Shown here: positions 38,579 through 47,594 of the stretch, piece by piece
Layout: every line of letters begins with the position of its first letter
Position numbering within the stretch: position 1 is the first letter of the stretch
Origin: Ruania alkalisoli
Lineage (GTDB): Bacteria; Actinomycetota; Actinomycetes; Actinomycetales; Beutenbergiaceae
Length of the DNA: 64,000 nucleotides
Assembly (NCBI RefSeq): GCF_014960965.1
Contig: NZ_CP063169.1
Location: 1,769,581-1,833,580, forward strand
Reading direction: 5' to 3'
Made by a program: the position numbers and the translations under genes
The notes under the pieces: model-generated
What the model was told of the DNA's origin: nothing
The model's input: only the letters and a program-made list of their open reading frames with translations
Databases searched by the model: none

Positions 38579-39547
38579 GTGACGACATCGCCCGACCGGC
38601 ACATCCCCGTGCTGGCGCAGCGGTGCCTCGACCTGCTTGAGCCCGCGGTGGGCGACCCTGGTGCGGTACTCATCGATGCGACCCTCGGCCTCGGCGGACA
38701 CGCCGAGGCCGCGTTGCGTCGCTTCCCGCACCTGCGGGTGGTCGGGATCGATCGGGACCCGGAGGCGATCACCTCGGCGAGCGAACGGCTCGCAGACTTC
38801 GCCGACCGGTTCATCGCGGTGCATGCGGTCTACGACGAGATCGGTGCGATCGCCGCTGAGCATGGACCGGGCGGCCGGGTGCGGGGCATCCTGTTCGACC
38901 TCGGTGTCTCCTCGATGCAGCTGGACGAGGCCGAGCGCGGCTTCTCCTATGCCAAGGACGCGCCGCTGGACATGCGGATGGATCAGAGCACCGGACGGAC
39001 AGCCGCAGATCTCCTGGCTGAGGCGCCCGAGGCGGAGCTGCGACGGATCCTCTTCACCTACGGAGAAGAGAAATTCGCCCCGAGGATCGCCCGTGCGCTG
39101 GTGCGGGCGCGCGCTGAGCAGCCGCTGTCCCGGTCCGGTGAACTGGTGGAGCTGGTGCGGGCCAACATCCCGCATGCGGCGCGCCGCACCGGCGGCAATC
39201 CGGCCAAGCGCACGTTCCAGGCGCTGCGGATCGCTGTCAATGCGGAGCTCGAGGTATTGGAACGAGCGCTACCGGCGGCGATCGATGCGCTCGCCGTCCG
39301 CGGGCGGATCGTCGTCGAGTCGTATCAGTCGCTCGAGGACCGGATCGTCAAGCGTGCACTTGCCGCTGGCGCCCGATCGAGTGCCCCCGACGATCTTCCG
39401 GTACCGCTGCCCGAGCACGCACCGTCTCTGCGGTTGCTCACGCGCGGTGCGGAGCAGGCCGATGAGGACGAGCGAGAGCGCAACCCGCGCTCGGCGTCGG
39501 TGCGGGTCCGGGCCGCTGAACGGATCCGGGAAGGGAGTCCACGATGA
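38579..39547 (+). CDS. rsmH: 16S rRNA (cytosine-1402-N4) methyltransferase RsmH (MraW)
   Basis: 322 residues. [20 protein letters not shown] motif [76 protein letters not shown] and [14 protein letters not shown] are all family hallmarks. GTG 38579 preceded by GAGAGGTCAGATC. The stop overlaps ftsL (ATGA). The gap to mraZ is unusually long for this pair and holds a box cluster. Confidence 0.97.
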
Positions 39548-43400: not shown

Positions 43401-44845
43401 TCACCCTCACCCTGGCCGAGATCGCGGCCGCCACCTCTGGCCGTGTCCATGACCCGGGGCCGTCCACTGGCCGGCCTGCTGAACCGTCGGAGCTCGTGCA
43501 GGTCACCGCCGAGGTGGTGATCGACTCCCGGCTCGCGGCCCCCGGTGGTCTGTTCGTGGCCGTCGCGGGTGAGCGGGTGGATGGTCATGACTACCTGACT
43601 ACGGCGGCCGAGCGAGGAGCCGTTGCAGCCCTGGTCTCTCGACCGGTGCCGGACAGTCCCATCCCGTACGTCCTCGTGCCCGACGTCCCGCTCGCACTCG
43701 GCGCCCTGGCCCGGGAAGCGCTGGTACGCCTCCGCGCCGCCGGCCAGATCACGGTCGTGGCGATCACCGGATCGGTGGGCAAGACCAGCACCAAGGACCT
43801 CCTCGCACAGGTGCTGGCGCCGGTGGGTGACCTGATCGCCCCGGCGGGATCGTTCAACAATGAGTTCGGCCTGCCGTTGACCGTGCTGCGGGCCAACGAG
43901 AGAACCCGGGTGCTGGTGCTCGAGATGGGAGCGGACCGGGTCGGCAACCTCACCTACCTGACAGCGATCGCCCCGCCGGACATCGCCGTGGTGCTCGCGG
44001 TCGGAACGGCCCACCTCGGCGGCTTCGGCAGCGTCGAGGCCATCGCGCTGGCAAAGTCGGAGCTGGTGCAGGGCCTGCGCCCGGACGGGATCGCGGTGCT
44101 GAACGCCGATGACCCGCGGGTGGTCACGATGGCCGAGGTATCGGCCGGCTCTGAGGTGCGCAGTTTCGCCCAGATCGCCGATGCGCACGTGCGCGCCACT
44201 GACGTCTCGGTGGACGCTGACGGGCACGCCACATTCACGTTGAGTGCCGGGCCGGTTCACGTCCCCGCCCGGCTCGCTCTGGTGGGCCGCCACCACGTCA
44301 CAAACGCATTGGCCGCCGCCACCGTTGCCCTCGCGCTCGGGCTGACCCTTGAGCAGGTGGCGGACGGGCTCGGAACGGCCACAGCGCTGAGCCCGCACCG
44401 GATGCATGTCCGGTCCTGGGGTCGGCGTACGCTCATCGACGATGCCTACAACGCGAACCCGGACTCGATGAGGGCGGCGCTGGATGCTCTCGGGTCCATC
44501 GCCGGCACCCGGCGCCGGGTCGCGGTGCTGGGCGAGATGCGTGAGCTCGGTGAGATCGCTGTTCAGGCGCACGAGGAGATCGGCCGGTATGCCGCTGACC
44601 GGGGCGCCGACCTGGTCGTGACCGTGGGCGATGGCGCCGAGCCGATCGCTGGCGGTGCGAGAGTCGCCGGGGTGCCGGTGGTGAGGTCGGTGGCCGACGT
44701 GGACGAGGCGGAGGAACTGCTGGTGAGTGAGCTCGGCGACGACGACGTGGTGCTGGTCAAGTCCTCGAACTCGGCCGGTCTGGCAGTGCTCGCCGACCGG
44801 CTGGCGGCCGCGGCAGGACCGACCGGGGCGGGGGAGTCCGCATGA
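43397..44845 (+). CDS. murF: UDP-N-acetylmuramoyl-tripeptide-D-alanyl-D-alanine ligase MurF
   Basis: 482 residues. Adds D-Ala-D-Ala to the UDP-MurNAc-tripeptide. [21 protein letters not shown]-loop [78 protein letters not shown] and [10 protein letters not shown]. Length and motifs are normal. ATG overlaps the murE stop and the stop overlaps mraY, giving tight translational coupling. Confidence 0.97.
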
Positions 44846-45924
44846 TCGCCATTCTCGTCGCCGGAGCGGTGGCGCTCGTCGTCTCCTTGCTCGGCACCCC
44901 CCTCTTCATCCGGTTCCTGGTGCACCGCAACTATGGGCAGTTCATCCGCCAGGACGGCCCGACCGCTCACTTCACCAAGCGTGGGACCCCCACCATGGGC
45001 GGCGTGGTCATCATCGTGGCCACGCTGGTGGCCTACGCCTTCTCGAATGTGGTGACCGGCAACCTGCCCAGCGCTTCCGGTCTGCTGCTGCTGTTCCTCA
45101 TGGTCGGGCTCGGCATCGTCGGTTTCCTGGACGATTTCATCAAGATCAGCCGACAGCGCTCCCTGGGGCTGAGCCCCGCCTGGAAGATCGTCGGCCAGGG
45201 TGTGATCGGCGTGGTCTTCTCTGTCTTGGTGCTGCAGTTCCCGAATGAACGGTTCCGCACACCGGCGAGCACGGAGATCTCCTTCTCCCGAGATCTCGGG
45301 ATCGATCTGGCGTTCGCCGGCGCGACTGTGGGGCTGCTGCTGTTCGTCATCTGGGCGAACTTCCTGATCACCGCCTGGTCGAATGCGGTCAACCTGACCG
45401 ACGGGCTCGACGGCCTCGCGACCGGGGCGTCGATGTTCGTCTTCGGTGCCTACACCTTGGTGACGATCTGGCAGATGAACCAGAACTGTCAGTTGCTCTC
45501 CAGCGTGGGCCCGAGCTGCTATGAGGTCCGGGACCCACGCGACCTGTCGATCGTGGCCGCCGCGATCGTCGGAGCCTGCTTCGGGTTCCTGTGGTGGAAT
45601 GCCTCCCCAGCGAAGATCTTCATGGGTGACACGGGGGCGCTCGCGCTTGGCGGTGCGCTCGCCGGGATGACGATCCTGACCCGCACCGAGATCCTGGGGG
45701 CGATCATCGGGGGTCTGTTCGTGCTGATCATCCTCTCGGACGTCATCCAGATCGGCTTCTTCAAGGCGACCGGCCGTCGGGTGTTCAAGATGGCCCCGTT
45801 GCATCATCATTTCGAGCTGATGGGCTGGGGCGAGGTGACGATCGTCATCCGGTTCTGGATCATCGCGGCACTGTGCGCGAGCCTCGGGTTGGGCATCTTC
45901 TACGCCGAGTGGATCGCTGGATGA
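44842..45924 (+). CDS. mraY: Phospho-MurNAc-pentapeptide transferase MraY
   Basis: 360 residues, ten-helix membrane enzyme forming lipid I. Conserved loops: [32 protein letters not shown] (Asp-Asp), [17 protein letters not shown] (catalytic Asp), [16 protein letters not shown] and [13 protein letters not shown]. The gene ends at TGA 45922-45924, inside an ATGA that begins the frame continuing into murD, and the stop itself is the first base of an inverted-repeat-bounded duplicated segment. Confidence 0.97.
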
Positions 45925-47594
45925 TCCCGAGGAGCCCCGGCGGAGGTGGCCCGACGGAGGAGGGGCGGTGGAGCCAGGCACCGCAGGGATCAGACCAACA
46001 GAACTGGATGATCCCGAGGAGCCCCGGCGGAGGTGGCCCGACGGAGGAGGGGCGGTGGAGCCAGGCACCGCAGGGATCAAACCAAGGGCACAGGATGATC
46101 GACGCCCTCCGCGGCCGCGAGGTGCTCGTCGCCGGACTTGGGATCTCGGGACGCGCGTGCGTAGAGGCACTTGTCGAGGTGGGTGCGCGGGTCTGCGCTG
46201 TGGATTCGCGGCCGGAACAAGCCGAGGGGCTGCCTTCCAGTGTGCGTGTGTTCACGGGGGAGGAGCCGACGGCGCTGGCTCGGCATGCGTGGGAGCGTCC
46301 GCCGAGCCTGGTGGTCGCCTCGCCGGGGTGGCGACCAGCGTCTCCGGTGCTGCAGCGTGCGGCAGAACGTGGCGTACCGGTCTGGAGCGAGGTCGAGCTG
46401 GCCTGGCAGGTCTGCTCACCGCAGGTGCGTTGGCTGACCCTCACCGGCACGAACGGGAAGACGACCACCGTCGGCATGCTCGAGAAGATGCTCACCGCGC
46501 ACGGGTGGCGGGCACCGGCCGTGGGCAACGTCGGCACCCCGATCGTGACCACGGTGCTGCAGGCTCGGGCCGGCGGGGAGAGACTCGACGCTCTCGCGGT
46601 GGAGCTGTCCTCATTCCAGCTGCACTACACCCATTCGGTCTCCCCGGTGGCCTCCGCCTGCCTGAACGTCGATGCCGACCACCTCGACTGGCATGGGTCC
46701 ATGGACGCCTACGCGGCTGCGAAGGCCCGGGTCTATGAACGCACGCAGGCGGCTTGCGTCTACAACGTGGCCGATCCGCGAACGCGGCGCATGGTGGAGG
46801 AGGCCGACGTGATCGATGGTGCTCGCGCCGTCGGTTTCACTCTGGGAATGCCAGGACTGGGCCAGGTCGGTGTGGTCGAAGACGTCCTCGCAGACCGGGC
46901 GTTCATACCCAACCGGCACACGCACGCGGCCGAGCTGGGAACCCTCGCTGACTTGCGCCATCTCGGCGGTAGCGCAGCTTCCGCGACGTCGTCCTCCGAT
47001 GATGCGTCGCCCGATGATGCGGACGGGCTGTCCATTGCGCCGCATGTGGTGGCGAACGCCCTCGCGGCTGCGGCGCTCGCACGCGCCGCTGGGGTGGAAC
47101 CCGGCGACATCGCGTCGGGCCTGCGTTCCTATCGCCCGGGGGCGCACCGCATGCAGGTCGTCGCCGACGTGGACGGTGTGCGCTTCATCGACGATTCGAA
47201 AGCCACGAACGCCCATGCAGCATCGGCTGCATTGGCGGCGATGGAGCCTGGGGCGACGGTGTGGATCGCCGGCGGATTGGCCAAGGGCGCCCGGTTTGAC
47301 GATCTGGTGGAGCGGCATGCGGGGAAGCTGCGCGCCGTGGTGGTGATCGGCGTCGATCCGGAGCCGATCGTCAGCGCGCTACAGCGACACGCGCCCGACA
47401 TCCCACGCCTGGTGGTACCCGCTGGCGACACTGAGGTCATGAGACAGGCCGTGGCTGCAGCCCGCGCGCAGGCGCGCCCGGGTGATGCGGTGCTGCTCGC
47501 TCCGGCGTGCGCCTCGATGGATCAGTTCGAATCCTACGCAGCCCGCGGTGAGGCGTTCACGGCATCGGTCCGTTCGCTCATGGAGCGCTCATGA
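45921..47594 (+). CDS. murD: UDP-N-acetylmuramoylalanine-D-glutamate ligase MurD with a 58-residue repeated N-terminal extension
   Basis: 557 residues from ATG 45921; the family core starts at residue 59 ([21 protein letters not shown]). Core motifs: P-loop [84 protein letters not shown] and [20 protein letters not shown]. The extension is two 29-residue units beginning [17 protein letters not shown] and differing only in their last residues. It comes from two 87-bp tandem DNA units. ATG 45921 keeps the ATGA overlap seen at neighbouring junctions and the frame is open throughout, so this start is annotated. The alternative is ATG 46095 (499 residues), which matches homologues but has only a weak AAGGGCACAGG ribosome site. 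Confidence 0.9.
45922..46079. repeat. Two tandem copies of a 71-bp core bounded by TGATCCC/GGGATCA (87-bp period)
   Basis: Copy 1 is 45922-45992 and copy 2 is 46009-46079; the 71-bp cores are identical. Each begins TGATCCC and ends GGGATCA, its reverse complement. The 16-nt spacers after them differ (GACCAACAGAACTGGA and AACCAAGGGCACAGGA). GGATGATC precedes copy 1, precedes copy 2 and occurs at the MurD core start, as if the units had been inserted into an ancestral ATGATC overlap. I found no other copy in the window. Confidence 0.92.

Follow-up and report, generated by a model that had tools for sequence, protein, structure and literature searches.

The DNA analysed here, which we call the window, is a stretch of 64,000 nucleotides from Ruania alkalisoli that carries a cluster of cell-wall genes, including two that we take to be mraY and murD on the strength of background knowledge and of an earlier note on this sequence. 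At the ATGA overlap of these two genes, and in frame with MurD, lies an insert made of two copies of an 87-bp unit (Table 1).

A duplicated insert between mraY and murD

Repeat finders report the two units at 95% identity over 87 nt (TRF score 333) in the register 45917-46003 and 46004-46090, and the units agree completely across the first 72 nt of each (identity 1.0). The earlier note had described two identical 71-bp cores, each reading TGATCCC...GGGATCA, at an 87-bp spacing, 16-nt spacers that differ from one another, and a frame without a stop for 58 codons that runs into MurD; the sequence, the repeat finders and the reading frame from 45921 bear out each of these points. It had also listed 4-nt overlaps at murE/murF, murF/mraY, murD/ftsW, murG/murC and murC/ftsQ, which the ORF ends confirm, and had proposed that deleting 174 bp would restore the same ATGA overlap at mraY/murD. 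In the relative G006 this junction is empty and reads ...GCCGG followed directly by ATGATCGACGCG, and the insert therefore measures exactly 174 bp, as proposed.

Table 1. Positions of the insert, its parts and the flanking genes, numbered from the first letter of the window.
Feature	Position	Strand	Basis and remarks
Element unit 1	45921..46007	+	87 bp, 29 sense codons; its first bases are the ATGA that ends mraY
Element unit 2	46008..46094	+	87 bp, 29 sense codons, in the MurD frame
Unit 1 hairpin, TGATCCC...GGGATCA	45922..45992	+	RNA MFE of a 77-nt stretch -34.6 kcal/mol, z -1.64; family covariation
Unit 2 hairpin	46009..46079	+	MFE -34.6 kcal/mol, z -1.73; family covariation
Probable target duplication, left flank, TGG-ATGA-T	45918..45925	+	Sequence; 8-bp extent inferred from flank tests
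Inter-unit 8 bases, TGG-ATGA-T, same as left flank	46005..46012	+	Sequence
Probable target duplication, right flank, AGG-ATGA-T, with native MurD start	46092..46099	+	Sequence; 8-bp extent inferred
AAGGG, weak Shine-Dalgarno-like motif	46084..46088	+	Sequence; 6 nt upstream of the native MurD ATG
mraY	44842..45924	+	ORF; its TGA lies inside the unit 1 ATGA
murD from conserved start	46095..47594	+	ORF extends upstream through both units

At the Rfam gathering score, the sole match in the window is the mraW RNA motif (RF01746, 38358-38453), some 125 nt ahead of a 322-aa ORF listed as starting at 38579, where the cell-wall gene cluster begins; the hairpin element itself matches no curated family. 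The interior of murD contains a short 15-bp tandem repeat (46990-47021) that encodes a Ser/Asp-rich stretch.

Dispersed copies, their sites and their reading frames

Used as a query against its own genome (a single contig of 4.45 Mb), the insert found 11 matches. With a sequence-only covariance model (R1) made from an alignment (A1) of 14 copies, the same genome yielded 20 copies at 14 sites, all at E <= 1.3e-11, the next match lying at E = 0.006, and a chance origin is rejected on this distribution; a search of the genome with the core was among the checks that the earlier note had suggested. All 8 genomes of the genus contain matches to R1, 2 to 25 apiece (E <= 1e-4). In the order, taking the best 24 candidates per genome and stricter filters, matches were found in at least 11 of 198 genomes and at least 2 of 72 genera, made up of six genomes of the insert's own genus and five of one genus in another family; across 396 genomes of the phylum, with the best 12 candidates per genome, the own genome alone was matched (12 of its 20 copies). 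Scanned with a strict pattern, which would miss divergent copies, a species-level genome collection gave 27 stretches, all of them in Ruania, Isoptericola, Krasilnikoviella and Nocardioides. A 16-mer of the family 5' end, in a form absent from the window's own copies, had 45 matches in 7 of the 8 genus genomes, and its reversed control had 0. Searches of plasmids, phages and viral contigs with the hairpin element gave no match, and a 51-nt match to a phage record in the window falls in mraY, outside the element. Among the titles and abstract openings returned by searches of an open-licence literature collection, none was seen to describe the hairpin family.

The sites were compiled in a table of 123 arrays with 154 copies, drawn from 13 genomes and 8 named records. 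These 8 are the part kept from the 27 stretches of the pattern scan, the remaining 19 being apparent duplicates of genomes already used, and four further genomic loci contribute no separate array (L028 and L136 are repeats of neighbouring loci, and the weak model matches at L152 and L183 were missed by nhmmer at E 1e-3). Frame counts over the 123 arrays include orthologous sites, the independent sites numbering 76.

An array starts with ATGA or GTGA in 118 of 123 cases. When arrays are classed by the frame of their last unit, 78 fall in what we call relay mode, in which an ORF, of 30 codons in most, finds its TGA stop in the NTGA that starts the next gene, and another 9 relay in the same way into a short next ORF. 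A further 27 arrays are in fusion mode, in frame with the next gene and typically with 29 codons per unit, as is the case for MurD in the window, and 9 arrays fit neither mode. In the own genome, the NTGA start is present at 14/14 sites, of which 8 are relay, 5 fusion and 1 other. A second frame test ignores the element ORF and asks instead for the frame of the longest downstream ORF. On the strand of the element, 113 of the 123 arrays are followed by an ORF of 70 codons or more (10 have none), and this ORF is in the relay frame in 75, in the fusion frame in 27 and in the third frame in 11, so that the permitted frames hold 102/113 against a two-thirds expectation of about 75. Upstream, on that same strand, the array's NTGA closes an ORF of this minimum length at 97/123 arrays; at 18 such an ORF ends elsewhere, and at 8 there is none.

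Spacings between tandem units are 87 (14 cases), 89 (11), 90 (4), 91 (1) and 96 (1), or 0 in 19, 2 in 11 and 1 in 1 when taken modulo 3, which means that the relay or fusion frame is kept in 30/31. One array (L032, G000 4294647-4294812) has two units, a 1-nt insertion, a 91-bp spacing and then a partial copy; it follows neither mode and is perhaps a decayed array. Just upstream of the next gene, a Shine-Dalgarno match of 4 nt or more is present in 57 of 63 relay units of standard length, compared with 8/17 fusion units and 76/118 original starts; one of the 63 (L166) ends in CTGA.

Filled and empty sites, flanks and the covarying hairpin

A comparison of the mraY/murD junction among relatives, another check suggested in the earlier note, found it occupied in 4/8 Ruania genomes, in three distinct versions, and empty in the other four (G001, G002, G003 and G006). 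Two fused units are present in G000, a full unit plus one shortened by a 39-bp in-frame deletion in its nearest relative G005, two relay units in G004, and one unit in G007. Copies from G000/G005, G004 and G007 have a mutual identity of 0.61-0.75 (G000 vs G005, 0.99). Since copies at other sites are at least as similar (~0.79), the element seems to have entered this junction on separate occasions; a single ancestral insertion for all of the occupied Ruania junctions is rejected on these identities, with G000 and G005 sharing one. Two other genes, named from a reading of their translations, have filled and empty counterparts as well. The transketolase gene, found in 4/8 genus genomes, has three units in G000 and one in G001 and is empty in G005 and G007, and the oxidoreductase gene, found in 5/8, has one unit each in G000 and G001, is empty in G005 and G004, and in G006 has at its start only the 5' piece of a unit. 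The occupation of many other junctions by the family, together with the four empty mraY/murD junctions, leaves the earlier note's suggestion of a regulator of coupling in the cell-wall operon unsupported as a dedicated role, although the insert may still have an effect on MurD expression.

The last full unit of some arrays is followed by part of the 5' end of another. Fragments of the 5' end with no full unit behind them (ATGAGCGCGAGGAGCC...) also stand at gene starts at L212 (G006, ~1498-1515), G004:C1:1900231 and G001:C2:1736270, and such solo or terminal fragments may be deletion scars.

Tandem neighbours are much alike: 25 pairs (two loci and all copies with indels excluded) have a mean identity of 98%, the lowest being 0.85 (G004 mraY/murD). 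With the identical cores of the window, this points to local duplication, and two separate insertions at the window's mraY/murD junction are rejected on the same grounds. Copies at different sites within one genome are about 79% identical, and most insertions thus show no sign of being recent.

If the element arrived by insertion at a start codon, the bases around its first and last NTGA might retain a target duplication. The TGA is invariant at these sites, and duplication was judged from the surrounding positions. In 82 relay arrays, agreement between first and last NTGA is above permutation at -3, -2, -1, N and +4. The same positions stand out at 54 independent relay sites (N at p 0.04), as does -6 (p 0.01); at 13 fusion sites, -3 to N and also +7 (p 0.005) exceed permutation, while +4 is not significant (p 0.15). 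These 67 sites are the usable ones among the 76 independent sites, and across them the five positions from -3 to N and +4 agree in 242/335 cases vs 178.7 +/- 7.1 when permuted within genus group and mode (0/5000); control positions (-8 to -4 and +5 to +7) are slightly above permutation (z 2.4, 52/5000). As read from the flanking bases, a target duplication of about 8 bp, NNN-NTGA-N, is probable. The right flank in the window is mismatched at -3 (AGG vs TGG). An 8-bp duplication would account for the unusual ATGATC of the window copies, their T coming from MurD's own ATGATC.

For 14 copies, RNAalifold predicts a hairpin spanning the whole unit. Structure and codon tests started from the 154 copies, of which 144 are near full length, 128 of these are without indels, and 82 are nonredundant (from 13 genomes and 7 named records). 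In the 82, cells at paired positions can pair in 90.0% vs 82.1% after shuffling, and double-sided changes occupy 140 cells vs 45.8 +/- 5.4 in shuffled and 20-45 in slid controls; shuffles leave relatedness in, and the slid controls also fall short of 140. The weak pairs are 27-47 (unpaired in 40/82), 5-69 (24) and 31-43 (23), and the RNAalifold consensus of the 82 copies reduces stem 1 to its inner two pairs, with pair counts supporting the rest. Single copies fold little better than their shuffles (12 copies, z -0.42 to -2.40), so covariation carries the case for the hairpin. There are 212 G-U cells and 18 A-C cells, compared with 219 and 62 after shuffling, and this retention of G-U with depletion of A-C suggests that the RNA of the coding strand (or single-stranded DNA) is the conserved form; a symmetric double-stranded palindrome is rejected on the A-C depletion.

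An immobile, conserved cis-regulatory RNA hairpin, kept at start junctions to regulate the downstream gene, would also be expected to covary with tolerance of G-U, to hold a strict start-codon position and to recur at a few sites common to different genera, all of which we see. However, close relatives have orthologous junctions without the element, copies at mraY/murD in different species (G000/G005 excepted) are no more alike, at 0.61-0.75, than copies at other sites are, and the flanks appear duplicated, and we regard such a fixed regulator as very improbable. What the evidence favours is an element that moves, and here the earlier note's proposal of a small mobile palindromic element tolerant of insertion in coding frames is well supported in its main part, given the dispersed copies, the empty and filled orthologous sites, the duplication-like flanks and the covarying hairpin. 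It needs amending as to the sites, which are start codons (NTGA) where the element mostly forms a separate ORF and only in a minority of arrays a fusion.

The frame of the element is open throughout the family. No in-frame stop occurs in the first 25 codons of any of the 144 near-full-length copies; for the 82 nonredundant copies, 8.5 +/- 2.8 would be expected from column resampling and 20 +/- 3.7 from random substitution, and frame +2 of the same copies has 28 (21 expected at random). Diversity at codon positions 1-3 is nearly equal (0.23, 0.20 and 0.215), and the synonymous share of frame 0 (0.31) falls inside the 0.26-0.37 of the other five frames. Selection at the level of the peptide is rejected on these two measures, and an open frame that is not protected at the amino-acid level makes the peptide look like a by-product of ribosome passage. 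The same measures, which give no sign of amino-acid selection, and the limited share of fusions (27/123 arrays) argue against an N-terminal peptide module whose Gly/Pro/Ser-rich tails were selected for altering MurD and other enzymes; the in-frame fusion to MurD, found also in G005 where the 39-bp internal deletion preserves the frame, and the complete lack of stops in the 144 copies would suit such a module, which we nevertheless hold to be very improbable.

Proposed mechanism, known repeat families and possible traces of spread

We think it likely that the family is a non-autonomous mobile element that targets start codons, with ribosome relay or fusion at the host gene, and from the patterns described above we infer its translation, re-initiation behind it and its transposition. 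Such an interspersed element would insert at an NTGA start codon and duplicate about 8 bp (NNN-NTGA-N). The first NTGA, together with the original ribosome-binding site of the target gene, would then start the ORF within the element, and ribosomes would traverse the element, whose coding strand could form an RNA hairpin, to reach the second, duplicated NTGA. At most sites they would stop there and re-initiate on the target gene, usually aided by the Shine-Dalgarno sequence at the element's 3' end; at others, such as MurD, they would continue in frame and append a tail. Relay and fusion would both limit the damage of insertion, and the gene behind the element is probably still translatable. After insertion, units would multiply locally in tandem. 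For E. coli and Haloferax, PMC6728339 reports the validation of termination-reinitiation where a stop and a start codon overlap.

With 123 arrays at 76 independent sites, the target, the flank duplication, the frame, the carried ribosome-binding site and the RNA fold can be read from the sequences and put to the test, and three junctions have element-free counterparts. Some N-termini in these genera, that of MurD here among them, and some of their 30-codon ORFs may derive from the element.

The closest functional parallel is the MIRU (mycobacterial interspersed repetitive unit), which PMC12548453, citing Supply et al. 1997, describes as a short, apparently mobile repeat that inserts at start codons, with an internal ORF coupled to the gene at a -4 nt (NTGA) spacing. 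The ORF of the hairpin element similarly overlaps the upstream stop and the downstream start by NTGA (118/123 starts; 78 + 9 ends). MIRUs are oriented like their adjacent genes, and the hairpin element is co-oriented with its upstream (97/123) and downstream (113/123) ORFs. Supply and colleagues, in 1997, are said to have found MIRUs without obvious dyad symmetry, whereas the hairpin element forms an imperfect, strongly covarying hairpin along almost the entire unit; it also carries a Shine-Dalgarno sequence close to its 3' end and is probably flanked by an 8-bp duplication, the MIRU being compared with it by description only. The 27 matches of the strict pattern scan lie in four non-mycobacterial genera. 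By analogy, the hairpin element appears to work like a MIRU; kinship by sequence is unproven, and for this reason and for its covarying hairpin we do not file it as one. From its occurrence, the strategy of riding on translational coupling seems not to be limited to mycobacteria. It is possible, and we put this forward tentatively, that the family represents a class of selfish RNA hairpins distinct from MIRU, aimed at start codons, crossing actinobacterial orders, possibly mobilised in a way linked to RNA, and equipped with a built-in cassette for termination and reinitiation whose parts would be a borrowed start codon, an open ORF without amino-acid selection, a Shine-Dalgarno sequence of its own and a duplicated start codon.

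Rickettsia palindromic elements (RPE) are characterised in the review PMC10969869 as palindromic, ORF-encoding sequences of ~150 bp that enter genomic ORFs, many of them in frame in genes. On that account, the hairpin element resembles RPE in being palindromic, in encoding an ORF and in being able to lie in frame, and differs in its size (~87-89 bp), its position at start codons and its mostly separate short ORF. MITE, ERIC and REP sequences are small, non-autonomous, hairpin-forming and dispersed. All of this applies equally to the hairpin element, which is set apart from them by its start-codon placement and reading-frame rule. No classical terminal inverted repeat was seen outside the duplicated 8 bp; the inverted repeat takes in the TGA of the target and does not have clean ends beyond it.

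How the element is mobilised is a separate matter, and a REP/RAYT or MITE-type arrangement, in which a Y1 or DDE transposase recognises the hairpin or its ends, would be compatible with the start-codon-targeting element proposed above. The hairpin, the small size with no space for a transposase gene and the ~8-bp duplication, a length typical of several DDE families, are what such a mobiliser would lead us to expect. Against it, the Y1 transposase (PF01797), the TnpA-REP enzyme cognate to REP, was found in 0/8 genus genomes (5/14 control genomes were positive), the IS256-type transposase, the DDE family searched, in 1/8, and no terminal inverted repeat was seen outside the duplication, and we consider this arrangement rather unlikely. 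Reverse transcriptase is present in 3/8 genus genomes, and it, the Y1 and the IS256-type enzymes are all rejected as a general mobiliser in the genus.

Three observations concern the spread of individual copies. In the Isoptericola genome G079, copies from separate sites (L194, L195, L197 and L198, L200) share 97% identity, which hints at recent spread. The flanks of one site in G000 (L023) and G001 (L129) are 98.3-98.6% identical, far above the 76% identity of MurD between the two species, which suggests a recent transfer of that operon. Finally, one site is common to two Ruania genomes (L020 in G000 and L127 in G001) and to four Isoptericola records (L080, whose genus is inferred, L192, L203 and L089), the flanks in the Isoptericola records being 73-77% similar to those of the own genome; to judge by these flanks, it would represent either an old shared insertion or the same junction hit repeatedly.
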